Source: Rhodospirillales bacterium (GTDB lineage: Bacteria; Pseudomonadota; Alphaproteobacteria; Rhodospirillales; Defluviicoccaceae). Taken from it: a stretch of DNA of 64,000 nucleotides. How positions within the stretch are numbered: position 1 is the first letter of the stretch; each line of letters opens with the position of its first letter. The stretch spans positions 1-64,000 of the forward strand of contig JAEULH010000063.1 of NCBI GenBank assembly GCA_016793925.1. Reading direction: 5' to 3'. A model generated the notes under the pieces. It saw nothing but the letters and a program-made list of their open reading frames with translations. It did no database searches and was not told the DNA's origin. Shown here one piece after another: positions 15,029 to 21,590 of the stretch. A program made the position numbers and the translations under genes.

Positions 15029-18000
15029 TCAGGGCTCCTCGCCCAGAGACAGCAGCGACGCGTTGCCACCCGACGCGGTCGTGTCAACGCAAAGAGTTCG
15101 CTCGTGCATGAATCCCCCCAAATAGTGTGCGCAGCCCGCCGGCGACATGCCGCGGCCGAGATCTCCGTTGGGCTCCTCGGCAAAGAGGATCAACGGGATG
15201 ATCGGCCCGTCGCGGGCCGCCAGCGCGCGGTTGAGCACCGGCACAAGCGCATCCGGGCCTGCGTAAGCGAGGCCCGCAAGCTCCGGCGCGGCCGCGAGGT
15301 CTTCAACCGAGCCGTCGTCACCGACAGGAAGCAGGACCAGCGCGTCTTCGAGCACGCCACCGCCGATCACGGCGGCAACGGCCTCCGCCGCCAAGGTCGG
15401 ATTCGCATGCCACGCGACGACGCCGTTGCCTGCGGCAAGCGCGGCGGCGATCTGAGCGACGAATGGAACGAGGTCCAGCCCGTCGCCCAGGCTGAGACAG
15501 ATGACCACACCGCGTGGCGCATGCCGGATCTCGTTGCGCTCGCCGGTCGGCCCGGGCAGGGCATCCGGTTCGGCGAACTCCGCGCGGAGCTGGGCGCCGT
15601 AAAAGCGAACATAACGGGCCGCCTCTTCTCCGGCCGCGTTCGTTGCGAGCAGACGATCCGCGGCGCGTTCGAGACGATCGGCACGCACCTCGGCCGCCAT
15701 TGCAGCCCACGCACGGCCGCCTTCCCCGGCCGTTCGCATCGCCGCGGCAAGACCGGCGCGGGCAAAGCGGACGATGGGCGTCGGCCCGCGTCCGCTCGCT
15801 GACCGCGCTTCGCTGGGCGTCGCAACGCCCTCGCGCGCAGGCCGATACGTCGAGAAGCGCCGCAGGTACATTGGCCCCCCGGCCTTCGGCCCGGTGCCGG
15901 AGAGCCCCTGGCCGCCGAACGGCTGGACACCGACCATCGCGCCGATCTGGTTGCGGTTGACGTAGGTGTTGCCGACGCGGGTGCGGCCGAAAATCCTGCG
16001 CCAGGTCTGATCGATGCGCGTCTGCACGCCGAGCGTCAGGCCATAGCCGGTGTCGTTGATCGCGGCGAGGACATCGTCCAGGCGATCGGCCCGGTAGCGG
16101 ATCACGTGCAGCACCGGGCCGAAAACTTCCCGCTGCAGACGCGAGAGCCGATCGATCTCGACCAGCGTCGGGGCGAAGAAGGTTCCGCGGCTCGTATTCG
16201 GCCCGAGCCGCGCGCGCGCGAGGATCCGGGCTTCGCGCTCCATGCGCGTGACGTGACCGTTGAGCATGTCGCGGGCGTCGGCATCGATGACCGGGCCGAT
16301 GTCGGTCGCGAGCAGCGCCGGATCGTCGATGACAAGCTCGTCCATCGCCCCGGCCAGCATCCTCAGCAGGCCATCGGCGATATCCTCCTGGACAAACAGC
16401 ACGCGGAGCGCCGAGCAGCGCTGGCCGGCGCTCTGGAAGGCGGAGACAAGCGCGTCGCGCGTGACCTGCTCGGGCAACGCCGTCGAGTCGACGATCATGG
16501 CGTTCTGCCCGCCGGTCTCGGCGATCAGGGTCGCCGGCGGTCCGTCCCGGCGGGCCAGCGTGCGGTTGATCTGCCACGCAACCTCGGTGGAGCCGGTGAA
16601 GGCGACCCCCGAGATCCGTGGATCGGCAACCAGCGGCGCGCCGACGCGCGCGCCATCGCCCGGAAGCAAATGCAGCACGTCGCCGGGGATGCCGGCTGCG
16701 AGGAGGATGCGCACAGCCTGGGCGGCGATCAGCGGCGTCTGTTCGGCCGGCTTGGCGAGAACCGCGTTGCCGGCGACGAGCGCTGCCGTCACCTGGCCGG
16801 TAAAGATGGCGAGAGGGAAGTTCCACGGGCTGATGCAGGCGAAAAGGCCGCCGCCGCCCAGCGTCACTGCCCGAACGCCGTCGCCGCCGACCGGGAGCGG
16901 CAGCGGCCGTTCCAGGTCCGCCCGCGCGCGCGCCGCGTAGTAGCGGCAAAAATCGACCGCCTCGCGCACCTCGGCGACGGCATCGGCAACGGTCTTGCCG
17001 GCCTCTGCAATGCACATCGCCATCAACGCCGGCATCTCGCGTTCGAGCCGGTCGGCGGCGCGATCGAGGCAGGCGGCGCGCTCGTCGACGGGTGTCTCCG
17101 CCCACTGCGGCGCCGCCGCCGCGGCGATCTGGAGCGCTCGGGCCACGTCATCCGCCGTCGCCTCGGTGACGCTGCCGACGGTTCGCGCCGCGTCCGAGGG
17201 CGAAGCCACGGCCCGGCCGCCGGCGCCGCCCTCTCCGATCTCACCGCCGCCGATCAGCGGCGCAGCCGTCCATGGCCCGCGGCCGGCGGCGGCCATGTTC
17301 TCGGCCAGGACCGCAAGCCGCGAACGATCGGCCAGATCGATGCCGGCGGAGTTGAGTCGCTCCGGCAGGAACATCGCCCGCGGCTCTGGAATGCGCGGAT
17401 GCGGCACATGGGCAAGACTGCGCACCCGGGCGATGGGGTCGGCGACGATCTCGTCGACGGGCAGCCGGTCGTCCTGGATGCGGTTGACGAAGGAGCTGTT
17501 GGCCCCGTTTTCGAGCAGGCGCCTGACGAGGTAGGCAAGCAGGTCTTCGTGCTGACCGACCGGAGCGTAGATGCGACAGCCGACCCCGACCCCATCCTTC
17601 TCGATGAGCTGCTCGTAAAGGCCATCCGCCATGCCGTGCAGCCGCTGGAACTCGTAATCCCGCCGACCGCCGGCATACTCGAGCACAGCGGCGATCGAGT
17701 GGGCATTGTGGGTCGCGAACTGTGGATAGAAGGCGTCCCTTTCCGCAAGCAGCATGCGCGCGCAGGCAAGGTAGGACACATCCGTCAGGGCCTTGCGGGT
17801 GAATACGGGATACCCGGGCAGGCCGAGTTCCTGGGCGCGTTTGATCTCCGCATCCCAGTAGGCGCCCTTGACCAGCCGCACCATCAGCCGGCGCCTGGCC
17901 TTTCGCGCGGTTTCCGCCAGCCACTCGATGACGTGGGGCGCGTTCTTCTGGTAGGTCTGGACAACGACCCCGAGGCCGCCCCAGCCCGCAAGAGAGCGCT

Positions 18001-18937
18001 CGCCCGCCAGCGCGGCGATGACATCGAGCGACAGATCGAGGCGATCGGCCTCCTCCGCGTCGATGGTGAGCGCGATCTCCGCCGCTGCGGCCGCCCGTGC
18101 CAGTTCCCGCAACCGCGGCACGACCTCCGCCATGACGCGATCCGCCTGGGCAACCTCGTAACGCGGATGCAGCGCCGACAGCTTGACCGAGATCCCCGGC
18201 CCGGAGATCACGTCGCGATCCTTGGCCGCGGCGCCGATGGCGGCGATGGCGTTGGCGTAGGACCGGAAGTAGCGCTCGGCGTCGGCCATGGTCCGCGCCG
18301 CCTCGCCGAGCATGTCGTAGGAGTAACGATAGCCGCGCTTTTCCAGGGGCTTCGCCCGGTCGAGGGCGTTCTCGATGGTCCGCCCCATCACGAACTGGCG
18401 GCCAAGGATGCGCATCGCCTGGTTGACGGCCTCGCGCACCACCGGCTCGCCGAGCCGGGCGATGAGGCGGCCCATCGCGGCCCCCGGCGTCTGGCCGGCG
18501 GCGTCATGCAGACGGACCATGCGGCCGGTAAGCATCAGCGCCCAGGTCGAGGCGTTGACGAACAGCGAACTGCTCCGGCCGAGATGGCGATCCCAGTCGG
18601 CCGCCGACATCTTGTCGCGGATCAGCCGTTCCTGCGTCAGATCGTCGGGGACCCGCAGGAGCGCCTCGGCGATGCACATCAACAGCACGCCCTCCTGCGA
18701 CGACAAGCCGTACTCGTGGAGGAAGGCGTCCAGCCCGCCCCTGCCGCGGCGCTCCCGACGCACCGCCTCGACGAGGTGGTGCGCCCGGGCCTGGATTCGC
18801 GTCCCGGCGTCGTCGGGCTGATCGAGCCGATCGAGCAGCGCCTGCACGCTCGCCGTCTCATCGCCGCGCTGGTGTGCCCGGATCGCGGCCCGCCGCGCGC
18901 CCACCTCTTCCGGCGGGCGGGCGAAGACGAAGTTCAT
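15029..18937 (-). CDS. putA: Bifunctional proline dehydrogenase / glutamate-semialdehyde dehydrogenase
   Basis: A 1302-residue enzyme oxidising proline to glutamate: FAD-dependent proline dehydrogenase (about 170-490, with RLVKGAYWDAEIKRAQ and GCRIYAPVGQHEDLLAYLVR) and NAD-dependent P5C dehydrogenase (about 560-1060, with ISPWNFP at 702, FTGSTEV, catalytic Glu807 in IAETGGQN and Cys841 in SAGQRCSALR). Residues 1070-1302 form an extra C-terminal, aldehyde-dehydrogenase-like domain seen in long PutAs. There is no N-terminal ribbon-helix-helix domain, so it does not repress its own gene. The transporter gene putP lies 36 nt upstream on the same strand. Confidence 0.96.
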   Translation of the reverse strand: MNFVFARPPEEVGARRAAIRAHQRGDETASVQALLDRLDQPDDAGTRIQARAHHLVEAVRRERRGRGGLDAFLHEYGLSSQEGVLLMCIAEALLRVPDDLTQERLIRDKMSAADWDRHLGRSSSLFVNASTWALMLTGRMVRLHDAAGQTPGAAMGRLIARLGEPVVREAVNQAMRILGRQFVMGRTIENALDRAKPLEKRGYRYSYDMLGEAARTMADAERYFRSYANAIAAIGAAAKDRDVISGPGISVKLSALHPRYEVAQADRVMAEVVPRLRELARAAAAAEIALTIDAEEADRLDLSLDVIAALAGERSLAGWGGLGVVVQTYQKNAPHVIEWLAETARKARRRLMVRLVKGAYWDAEIKRAQELGLPGYPVFTRKALTDVSYLACARMLLAERDAFYPQFATHNAHSIAAVLEYAGGRRDYEFQRLHGMADGLYEQLIEKDGVGVGCRIYAPVGQHEDLLAYLVRRLLENGANSSFVNRIQDDRLPVDEIVADPIARVRSLAHVPHPRIPEPRAMFLPERLNSAGIDLADRSRLAVLAENMAAAGRGPWTAAPLIGGGEIGEGGAGGRAVASPSDAARTVGSVTEATADDVARALQIAAAAAPQWAETPVDERAACLDRAADRLEREMPALMAMCIAEAGKTVADAVAEVREAVDFCRYYAARARADLERPLPLPVGGDGVRAVTLGGGGLFACISPWNFPLAIFTGQVTAALVAGNAVLAKPAEQTPLIAAQAVRILLAAGIPGDVLHLLPGDGARVGAPLVADPRISGVAFTGSTEVAWQINRTLARRDGPPATLIAETGGQNAMIVDSTALPEQVTRDALVSAFQSAGQRCSALRVLFVQEDIADGLLRMLAGAMDELVIDDPALLATDIGPVIDADARDMLNGHVTRMEREARILARARLGPNTSRGTFFAPTLVEIDRLSRLQREVFGPVLHVIRYRADRLDDVLAAINDTGYGLTLGVQTRIDQTWRRIFGRTRVGNTYVNRNQIGAMVGVQPFGGQGLSGTGPKAGGPMYLRRFSTYRPAREGVATPSEARSASGRGPTPIVRFARAGLAAAMRTAGEGGRAWAAMAAEVRADRLERAADRLLATNAAGEEAARYVRFYGAQLRAEFAEPDALPGPTGERNEIRHAPRGVVICLSLGDGLDLVPFVAQIAAALAAGNGVVAWHANPTLAAEAVAAVIGGGVLEDALVLLPVGDDGSVEDLAAAPELAGLAYAGPDALVPVLNRALAARDGPIIPLILFAEEPNGDLGRGMSPAGCAHYLGGFMHERTLCVDTTASGGNASLLSLGEEP

Positions 18938-18973
18938 TCCGACGTCGTCCCGCGGCTCTCGACGCCGAAATCG

Positions 18974-20461
18974 CTACCCGGCGGGGGCATGGATGATGCC
19001 CGAGACCTTCGCCTCCACCGAACGGTCGAAGTCGGCCACGATGTCTGCATTCGGCTCGGCCGTGGCGAGGCTGGCTCCGACAACGGCCAGCGCGCAGAAG
19101 ATAAAGCCCGGAATAATTTCATAGATGTCAAATATGCCGCCCTCGAGCTGTTTCCAGACGACGACCGTGACCGCGCCCACGATCAACCCGGCCGCGGCGC
19201 CGTACCGGTTCATTCGCCGCCAGAACAGCGACAGCAGGATCACCGGTCCGAACGCGGCGCCGAAGCCGGCCCAGGCATAGCTGACCAGGCCGAGCACCCG
19301 GCTCTCAGGATCGGACGCGAGAAGGCCCGCGATGACGGCAATCGCGACGACGCAGAAGCGGCCGACGAAAACCAACTCCTTGTCGCTCGCGTTGCGGCGG
19401 ATGAAGGGGCGGTAGATGTCCTCCGTCAAAGCGCTCGAACAGACGAGAAGCTGAGAGTCGATCGTGCTCATCACCGCAGCAAGGATTGCAGCAAGCAAGA
19501 ATCCCGAAACCCACGGATTGAACAGGATCTGGCAGAACTGGATGAACACGGTCTCCGGGTTGCCCAGCGGCTCGGCGGAAAAATAGGCGATGCCGGTGTA
19601 GCCGACGAAGACCGCACCGTAGAGCCCGCACACCATCCAGACGATGTTGATCAGGCGCGCCAGCGGCACGTCGCGCGGCAGGCGTACGGCCATGAACCGG
19701 ACAAGGATATGCGGCTGGCCGAAGTAACCCAGCCCCCAGCCCATCAGCGAAACGATCCCGAGCGCGGTCATCCCCTTGAAGACGTCGTTGAAGGTCGGAT
19801 CGACAGTGGCGACCGCGGCCGTCGTCTCGCCCCAGCCGCCGAGGTGGCCGATGGCAACAATGGGGACGATGATCAGGGCGAGGAACATCATCATTCCCTG
19901 GAAGAAGTCGGTCCAGCAGACGGCCAGGAAGCCGCCGAGAAAGGTATAGGAAACGATGACGCCGGCGCCGATCCACAGCGCGAGGCCGTAGCTCAGCCCG
20001 AAGGTTTCCTTGAACAGGACGCCGCCGGCGACGAGCCCGGCCGAGACGTAGAAGGTAAAGAAGAGAAGGATGACGACCGCGGAAATGACCCTGAGGATGC
20101 GCGTGCTGTCGGCAAAGCGATTGTCGAGATAATCGGGGATGGTCAGCGAGTCCTTCGCCACCTCGGTGTAGATCCGCAGCCGTTCGGCGACGAACTGCCA
20201 GTTGAGGTAGGCGCCGATGACGAGGCCGATGCCGATCCAGATCTGGTTCATTCCGTCGGCGTAGACGGCGCCGGGCAGGCCGAGCAGCAGCCAGCCGCTC
20301 ATGTCCGAAGCGCCGGCCGACAGGGCCGCCACCGGCGGGGCCAGGCCACGGCCGCCGAGAATGTAGTCGGCAAGGTTCTTGGTCAGGAAATAGCAGATCA
20401 GGCCAATGCCCAGCATGGCGACGAGATAGACGGCAAATGCAACGATCGCGCCGGTGCTCAT
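18974..20461 (-). CDS. putP: Sodium/proline symporter
   Basis: A 495-residue SSS-family transporter with about 13 transmembrane helices. The family signature SDMSGWLLLGLPGAVYADG in TM2 and MGWGLGYFGQPHILVRFMA in the centre are close to those of PutP; the sodium-site region AAILAAVMSTIDSQLLV is intact. It brings proline into the cell for PutA, encoded 36 nt downstream, and both are probably one transcript. A 36-residue single-helix protein gene lies 101 nt upstream on the same strand. Confidence 0.94.
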   Translation of the reverse strand: MSTGAIVAFAVYLVAMLGIGLICYFLTKNLADYILGGRGLAPPVAALSAGASDMSGWLLLGLPGAVYADGMNQIWIGIGLVIGAYLNWQFVAERLRIYTEVAKDSLTIPDYLDNRFADSTRILRVISAVVILLFFTFYVSAGLVAGGVLFKETFGLSYGLALWIGAGVIVSYTFLGGFLAVCWTDFFQGMMMFLALIIVPIVAIGHLGGWGETTAAVATVDPTFNDVFKGMTALGIVSLMGWGLGYFGQPHILVRFMAVRLPRDVPLARLINIVWMVCGLYGAVFVGYTGIAYFSAEPLGNPETVFIQFCQILFNPWVSGFLLAAILAAVMSTIDSQLLVCSSALTEDIYRPFIRRNASDKELVFVGRFCVVAIAVIAGLLASDPESRVLGLVSYAWAGFGAAFGPVILLSLFWRRMNRYGAAAGLIVGAVTVVVWKQLEGGIFDIYEIIPGFIFCALAVVGASLATAEPNADIVADFDRSVEAKVSGIIHAPAG

Positions 20462-20562
20462 GATTCACCTCCCGCTCCTGCCCGGCCCTCCTTCGCAACC
20501 GCTGTGCCGGGCTCGCTATGAAGGCGCTATGGCGTTGACGGTGGTTCTTCGAGCGAGAGCCT

Positions 20563-20673
20563 CTAGCGGCGCTTGAGGGCGGCGCCGACGTAGGTGATGA
20601 TCGACAGCGCCACGACTGTCAGCATCGGCGCCAGCAGCCACAACCAGGTGGCGAGGGTCAGGCTCGTATGCAT
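20563..20673 (-). CDS. 36-residue single-helix membrane protein upstream of putP
   Basis: ATG 20673 is preceded by GGAGG at 10 nt, and the product is one hydrophobic helix (LATWLWLLAPMLTVVALSII) with a short basic tail ALKRR. Tiny single-span proteins encoded beside SSS and NSS family symporters are known as small accessory subunits; the position, 101 nt before putP, suggests the same here. The role in PutP assembly or activity is inference. It is too short for routine gene calling. Confidence 0.65.
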   Translation of the reverse strand: MHTSLTLATWLWLLAPMLTVVALSIITYVGAALKRR

Positions 20674-20849
20674 GGCTCAGCAGCCTCCATCAGCCGATTC
20701 TAGCACGCACCCCGCCGCCGGCGCATGCCTTTACTGACGCATTTGCCCCAAAAGCGAGAAACCCGCCGCAGCCGGGCGCAATCCACGCGAGCGGCAGCGT
20801 CCCAGCGCCTTGCAGGCCGGACGCGACTGCGAAAAGCCGCGCCGCCGCA

Positions 20850-21590
20850 TCATGGCTCGCCGATCCAGCCCTGCTTGACGAACAGCGCCTTCAGGCTGGC
20901 GGCGAGCTTGTCCCCGAGATGGCCCGCCTCGGCATCGACATTGGCGCTGAGATCTTCATTGGCGAACTGACTGCCGGCGGTAATCGCCGTCGAGACCAGC
21001 AGGTGGCCAGCCAGTGCGCCCACGCCCATTGTTTCCGCCGCGCCCGGCATGATGGTGCTCTCGGCCTTACCGCTCATGCTTTCGATGGCGATGCGCTGAC
21101 CGGCAACGGTTTCGTAGACCTGCGCGTGCGCCTCGACATCGCTGCGCCCGGCGCCGAGGCCGATGATCATCCGCTCGGCCTCGTTGCCCTGGTCGATGGA
21201 GACCAGCTGGCCCCTGATCAGCACATCGGTGCCCGTCGGTGACGGGGGCGTGGAAGCCCGTTGCGCCGGAAGTCCCATGGCCTGAATGTCTGAGACAAGA
21301 TGCTTGGCGAGAGCGGCTGCGACGGCGTGGCTAAGCTTCTGCTCCTGCGCAGATTTAGCGGTTCCATCTATCTTTTGTGCGATCTCGGCACCGACCGGAT
21401 CCAACTGGATCTCTTGTGGCGTCACGGCGAAGTCGTAGACAAGCACGCGCTGCGGCTGTGCCAGTTTCTCCGCCGCGCCGGCTTCCGGCGTCACCTTAAC
21501 GCTCGTGCAACCGTTGAGCAGAATAGCCACGAGCGGCGTGACGACCAGCAGGAAACCCTTCAAGGTCCCGGTCCGATCTTGCAGAACCAT
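20850..21590 (-). CDS. DUF4410 lipoprotein
   Basis: A 246-residue protein starting at ATG 21590 with GGAG 7 nt upstream. The signal sequence ends in a lipobox, ILLNGCTS, predicting lipidation at Cys28. The body has the DUF4410 pattern: VLVYDFAVTPQEI, LAKHLVSDIQAMG, VLIRGQLVSIDQGNEAERMIIGLGAGRSDVE (rough positions 50-150), a family of envelope lipoproteins of unknown role that resembles CsgG-type assembly factors in its alternating strand/helix layout. The C-terminal half contains a Gly/Ala-rich segment. Separate from its neighbours by about 200 bases on both sides. Confidence 0.85.
   Translation of the reverse strand: MVLQDRTGTLKGFLLVVTPLVAILLNGCTSVKVTPEAGAAEKLAQPQRVLVYDFAVTPQEIQLDPVGAEIAQKIDGTAKSAQEQKLSHAVAAALAKHLVSDIQAMGLPAQRASTPPSPTGTDVLIRGQLVSIDQGNEAERMIIGLGAGRSDVEAHAQVYETVAGQRIAIESMSGKAESTIMPGAAETMGVGALAGHLLVSTAITAGSQFANEDLSANVDAEAGHLGDKLAASLKALFVKQGWIGEP

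Follow-up and report, generated by a model that had tools for sequence, protein, structure and literature searches.

A conserved single-helix membrane protein encoded just upstream of putP, a likely accessory subunit of one clade of Na+/proline symporters

As the textbook symporter of Na+ and proline, PutP serves as a model of the SSS family and has been studied as a single polypeptide. Small proteins are encoded next to several other Na+-coupled transporters. MetS, the small subunit of the methionine transporter MetPS, has one span and serves a Na+-coupled transporter of the LeuT fold that belongs to another family (NSS). Nearer in kind are the proteins of NCBIfam model NF045580, "symporter small accessory protein" (33 positions), which are about 34 aa long and encoded immediately 5′ of an SSS symporter. 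Larger proteins of 87–90 aa, probably with two spans by hydropathy, are likewise encoded 5′ of SSS symporters, and are described by TIGR03647, "sodium/substrate symporter small subunit" (DUF4212, PF13937), and by DUF485 (PF04341). In human, the single helix of MAP17 (PDZK1IP1), which acts with SGLT2/SGLT1, is an essential auxiliary subunit of SGLT2 and contacts its TM13, according to excerpts of PMC10803289. For putP itself, no small membrane protein beside the gene was met among the open-licence papers listed, as judged by titles and the openings of abstracts, and the excerpts of PMC3032703 hold nothing on such a protein.

The DNA analysed here (the window, a stretch of 64,000 nucleotides in total) carries a small ORF ahead of putP. 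An earlier note on this DNA had described a frame of 36 residues with a ribosome binding site and a transmembrane helix, 101 nt upstream of putP; all of these points could be confirmed, and the strand was newly added. The small ORF lies on the minus strand at 20673..20563 (ATG at 20673, TAG stop at 20565..20563), and encodes a predicted single-span membrane protein of 36 aa, MHTSLTLATWLWLLAPMLTVVALSIITYVGAALKRR. Translation of 20563..20673 on the plus strand was rejected, the 36-aa protein being encoded on the minus strand. A Shine-Dalgarno-like GGAGG (20684..20688, minus strand) stands 10 nt 5′ of the ATG, a spacing that is a bit long. Using a 19-residue stretch with a mean Kyte-Doolittle value of at least 1.9 as criterion for a membrane span, the small ORF, with a peak of 2.11, was the only strong case among the 277 ORFs of 30–60 aa in the window. 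Farther upstream on the same strand, 176 nt 5′ of the small ORF, a DUF4410 protein is predicted at 20850–21590 (88 bits).

Downstream of the small ORF, a spacer of 101 nt (20462..20562), which includes the Shine-Dalgarno-like GGAGGTGA of putP at 20465..20472, leads to the putP gene at 20461..18974, all on the minus strand. Its product, a Na+/proline symporter of 495 aa in the SSS family, scored 711.5 bits against TIGR02121, for which the cut-off is 515.5 bits, and 367.3 bits against PF00474. The putA gene for proline dehydrogenase / P5C dehydrogenase (15029..18937, minus strand; NF008869 1645 bits, PF01619, PF00171) is located 36 nt downstream of putP, giving small ORF, putP and putA as the order of transcription. 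It appears that putP and putA are probably carried on one transcript, and the three genes together constitute a probable unit.

A recognisable version of the small ORF was found by family profile just 5′ of putP in 80/80 relatives. These were taken from 311 loci as the 80 whose PutP is most similar to that of the window, so that the figure applies to that clade. Conservation of the frame in relatives, the check that the earlier note had named, is strong. The 80 loci represent five phyla according to record titles, the hosts named being, among others, Marivibrio, Pseudomonas, Ectothiorhodospiraceae, Desulfobacteraceae, Desulfuromonadales, Puniceicoccaceae, a Bacteroidetes MAG and many Bacillota. 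Of these loci, 29 are also rows of the profile and the others are outside it; 79 were found by pattern, and one (L024) escaped the regular expression but was matched by the profile. In BLAST with the window peptide alone against 60 related genomes, the peptide itself was the sole convincing match, and 11 other genomes were matched at E 0.077 or worse. The conclusion that this search would imply, an ORF that is not conserved, is wrong, and single-sequence BLAST is too weak for this family. By name only, many of the hosts (L014–L093) point to salt, alkaline or marine habitats, i.e. Halobacillus, Gracilibacillus, Salipaludibacillus, Alkalihalobacillus and Marivibrio.

The family consensus reads MxxxLTxATWFWLLVPMPLxxxLSxITxFxER. 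In 30 aligned members, T9 and P16 were invariant, and A8, W10, W12, L13, L23 and S24 were conserved at 90% or more. From 78 loci (L020 and L024 left out), 34 non-overlapping pairs gave a pooled pN/pS ratio of 0.33, and among the 11 closest pairs nine had an identical 24-residue core although silent changes were present, a pattern which indicates at sequence level that the codons are under purifying selection. Upstream of 76/79 small ORFs a Shine-Dalgarno match of at least four letters was identified, with start codons that were assigned by us and partly chosen for that match. Because it is conserved in 80/80 loci and under purifying selection, the small ORF is a real gene.

Linkage to putP was followed with a profile from alignment A1 (30 rows, the window protein being one of them), which was searched across whole genomes. 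In its own genome the small-ORF protein, one of the profile rows, scored 57.4 bits. Of the 80 genomes, 28 were searched, and 30/30 profile matches in them were located just 5′ of a PutP above the TIGR02121 cut-off, at 14–96 nt from profile end to profile start; two of these genomes hold two pairs of small ORF and PutP each. The 28 genomes contain 34 PutPs above the cut-off, which leaves four without a small ORF. In the 150 genomes of one Bacillota order (that of G350; locus L019, titled Alkalihalobacillus), 62/62 matches precede PutP, 58 of them sitting 12–75 nt before a listed PutP match and four being confirmed from fetched DNA. These 62 matches fall in 59 genomes, three of which are shared with the 28-genome set. 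In the class of a Pseudomonas (G349; 274 genomes, threshold E≤1e-4), 5/5 matches precede PutP, two of them counted already, and in the class of a Desulfobacteraceae MAG (G348; 241 genomes) 3/4 do so, again with two counted already. The fourth match in the latter class (L227, E 5e-4, within a 93-aa frame, no PutP in 2.9 kb) was treated as chance. The window's own class (289 genomes; Alphaproteobacteria, to judge by the neighbours of its PutP) returned 11 profile matches, of which the one in the window's own genome alone was convincing; the other ten were partial, with E-values from 3.6e-5 to 7.6e-3, and the stretches around them contained no PutP-like frame. Members are thus scarce in the class of the window and common in the Bacillota order (59/150 genomes).

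Presence of the small ORF follows the phylogeny of PutP. The Bacillota order has at least 150 PutPs, and of the 150 listed, 58 were with the small ORF and 92 without, and 36 of the latter were fetched together with four paralogs. A quick method was used to build a tree from 86 sequences (44 with the ORF, i.e. 43 of the 88 positive loci after thinning and the window; 41 without; one outgroup). On this tree the small-ORF label needs two changes over 85 labelled PutPs, against a mean of 28.7 when shuffled, and 0/500 label shuffles were as good. The result is in keeping with a single gain at the clade base and a single loss in a subclade of five members, a direction of change that is tentative given the quick method, the root and long branches. 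The window PutP clusters with those of Marivibrio and another alphaproteobacterium (SH-aLRT 100).

The five-member subclade (L205, L207, L210, L215, L217) is nested inside the positive clade and has no small ORF upstream of putP, and the five genomes gave no match to the family profile at E≤0.001. These five loci offer a natural test of the role of the peptide. The small ORF is likewise lacking from E. coli PutP and, in two Pseudomonas and two Bacillota, from the second PutP; in the 500 nt upstream of E. coli putP there was no family match (best 5.0 bits, E 0.015 among frames, below inclusion). E. coli putP is preceded by ymdG, and YmdG is similar to the small-ORF protein in its position upstream of putP, whereas it consists of 8 aa and is unrelated. 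Since E. coli and the paralogous PutPs do without it, the peptide is not a general requirement of PutP, and the subclade argues in the same way that PutP would not depend strictly on it in all organisms.

AF2 modelling of the 36-aa protein returned a single helix over residues 2–35 with a mean pLDDT of 87.7. The span is hydrophobic, with Trp at the N-terminal border, the invariant Pro and an LS pair. In 77/80 proteins the flank C-terminal to the span holds more K+R than the N-terminal flank, and from this bias a topology of N-out/C-in is expected. By hydropathy, AF2 and charge, the protein has the short one-span form known for SSS accessory subunits, membrane insertion being predicted.

The natural read-through frame of small ORF, spacer and PutP was modelled by AF2 as well, giving the SSS fold at a mean pLDDT of 77.7, with the other four read-through models at 62.9 to 54.6. 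CHT1, SiaT, NIS and SGLT2-MAP17 were among the best structure matches of this model, the aligned span being mainly the PutP part, which superposed on SGLT2-MAP17 (entry 8hez, chain A) with Z 31.8 and rmsd 2.8 over 475 aligned positions. The SGLT2 alignment ended at residue 550–568 in ten of the 11 rows shown, and at 642 in one (7ynj). TM13 of the SGLTs lies beyond the point where most of these alignments end. Judging from the models, PutP probably is without this last helix of SGLT2, and since most alignments stop before TM13, the helix on which the peptide would dock in PutP is probably a different one. Comparison of PutP positions that changed upon loss of the ORF produced three (65, 89 and 280), against 0, 0, 0, 0, 0, 5 and 10 for seven clades used as controls, and therefore indicates no docking site; a looser pass, run without control, produced nine.

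The arrangement of the two genes in relatives raises the question of coupled translation. In 79 relatives, with starts as assigned by us, the median distance from the end of the small ORF to the start of putP was 3 nt (range -11 to 72), the ORF overlapped the putP start by 1–11 nt in 9/79, and the putP Shine-Dalgarno motif fell within the last codons of the ORF in 58/79. These short gaps and the position of the motif suggest that the two genes are probably translationally coupled in most relatives. Conservation of the C-terminal ERRE is in part accounted for by the ribosome binding site of putP; at the 21 loci where the motif and ORF do not overlap, and in the window, at least one K or R is kept in the tail. 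As a separate observation, small ORF and putP share the same frame in 48/79 of the loci L014–L093, 43 of these with one stop codon between, where one third would be expected, relatedness being uncorrected for. The gap of 101 nt in the window exceeds that of every one of the 79 relatives, and by this measure coupling in the window would be weaker or absent. From 18800 to 20900 the window has no terminator-like and no sigma-70-like match, and the predicted RNA fold of 20440–20700 was not more stable than shuffles (z 0.80).

A regulatory leader ORF, whose translation rather than product controls putP by opening the ribosome binding site or by attenuation, would account for the tight spacing, the overlaps and the embedded Shine-Dalgarno motif. 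It has a parallel in E. coli, where ymdG before putP is named, in excerpts of PMC7815308, among potential (regulatory) uORFs with an RNA 3′ end at most 200 nt downstream. A coupling ORF would not, however, need the amino acids of its span conserved across phyla under silent drift, and P16 as the one invariant Pro speaks against a proline-attenuation leader. In the window itself, the long gap, the lack of a terminator-like match and the ordinary fold fit poorly with such control, and we regard the leader as an improbable explanation for the gene, while coupling may be an added role beside subunit function. It could also be supposed that the peptide is a free-standing membrane protein of proline catabolism or membrane stress, binding PutA or a sensor, for example, and merely sharing the operon. 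A P5C dehydrogenase-like match within about 2.5 kb in 35/80 positive loci, some perhaps being other aldehyde dehydrogenases, and a proline dehydrogenase in addition in six of these 35 would agree with that idea. In the sets examined, however, strong profile matches adjoin PutP, and at 45/80 positive loci the flank, which is truncated in some, contains neither of these catabolic genes, so we give a free-standing protein little credence. As for an ORF present by chance, or intergenic DNA that yields no product, the shortness of the frame and the lack of any matching annotation model are what such a sequence would look like, whereas conservation in 80/80 loci, purifying selection and the Shine-Dalgarno matches in 76/79 (starts partly chosen for the match) make it barely credible.

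We consider it likely that the small ORF encodes a one-helix accessory subunit in the inner membrane for one clade of PutPs, a reading based on the profile matches, which across genomes fall just upstream of PutP, and further on the purifying selection, the charge pattern, the PutP tree, the close arrangement with putP in relatives and the small partners of two other SSS-like genes in the window's own genome. Conserved genetic linkage to the transporter, as expected of an SSS accessory subunit, was found. The earlier note had raised the idea of a PutP-associated accessory subunit, and its genetic side is upheld, with a gene that is conserved, under purifying selection, sited at PutP with no strong match at other places in the genomes searched, and passed on with one PutP clade across phyla; binding of the peptide to PutP and an effect on proline transport are suggested by analogy with known partners. 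In the accessory-subunit model, the peptide would be made just before PutP from the preceding ORF, and would insert so that the acidic N-terminus, bordered by Trp, faces outwards and the basic tail inwards, as the charges suggest. T9, W10, W12, L13, P16, L23 and S24 could then pack on the lipid-facing side of PutP, where the peptide may aid the folding or stability of the symporter or tune its transport cycle, in the way that MAP17 acts on SGLT2.

The window protein has no match to Pfam or NCBIfam models at E≤10. Family members gave sub-threshold chance matches only, both against Pfam (nine members) and against NCBIfam (the 30 A1 rows among others), and because the members tested match no model, many genomes probably carry the gene without a name. 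Searching PDB with the family profile returned two poor matches (E 2.6 and 7.2), and two members used as queries against a plasmid collection returned none.

One likeness is to NF045580, with which the small ORF shares its place beside an SSS symporter, directly 5′ of PutP. By score it stands apart, as the window protein has no match to this model at E≤10, where the curated cut-off is 35 bits. None of the 30 A1 rows matched NF045580 at E≤1, the window's own genome had 0 matches, and hhalign of the small-ORF family against a single NF045580 member gave a probability of 0.6%. As a positive control, an NF045580 member in L222, which precedes an SSS-like frame, scored 60.3 bits against its own model; the symporter next to it is 27% identical to the window PutP. 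The TIGR03647/DUF4212 and DUF485 proteins are more than twice as long and probably span the membrane twice, against 36 aa and one span here, and profile tests did not place the 36-aa protein in either family. Both types occur in the window's own genome, a DUF485 protein (L095, 1204–1476, contig C15) before one SSS-like gene and a DUF4212/TIGR03647 protein (L097, 1181–1444, contig C21) before another. A third SSS-like gene (L096) has no small partner seen upstream, and the fourth SSS-like match is L100. A different one-span ORF of 40 aa (L179, 490–612; G352:C2), unmatched in Pfam and NCBIfam at E≤0.01, overlaps the start of a gene for an SSS symporter that shares 34% identity with the window PutP, and is possibly another small SSS partner.

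With MAP17 the likeness would be one of kind, a single transmembrane helix that assists an SSS transporter. It is a tentative and rather doubtful generalisation that PutP in one broad clade forms a heterodimer, its partner being a helix of about 31–47 aa, and that one-helix SSS subunits have arisen repeatedly (this family, NF045580, MAP17), an added helix being a general means of stabilising or tuning the fold. Should a broad clade indeed have a conserved one-helix partner, expression and kinetic work on such PutPs without the partner may mislead, and the peptide would provide a bacterial counterpart, small enough for complete mutation, to MAP17-type control of SSS transporters. Small partners encoded upstream of SSS genes are a known kind, within which the small-ORF family, as far as its sequences tell, appears to be new.
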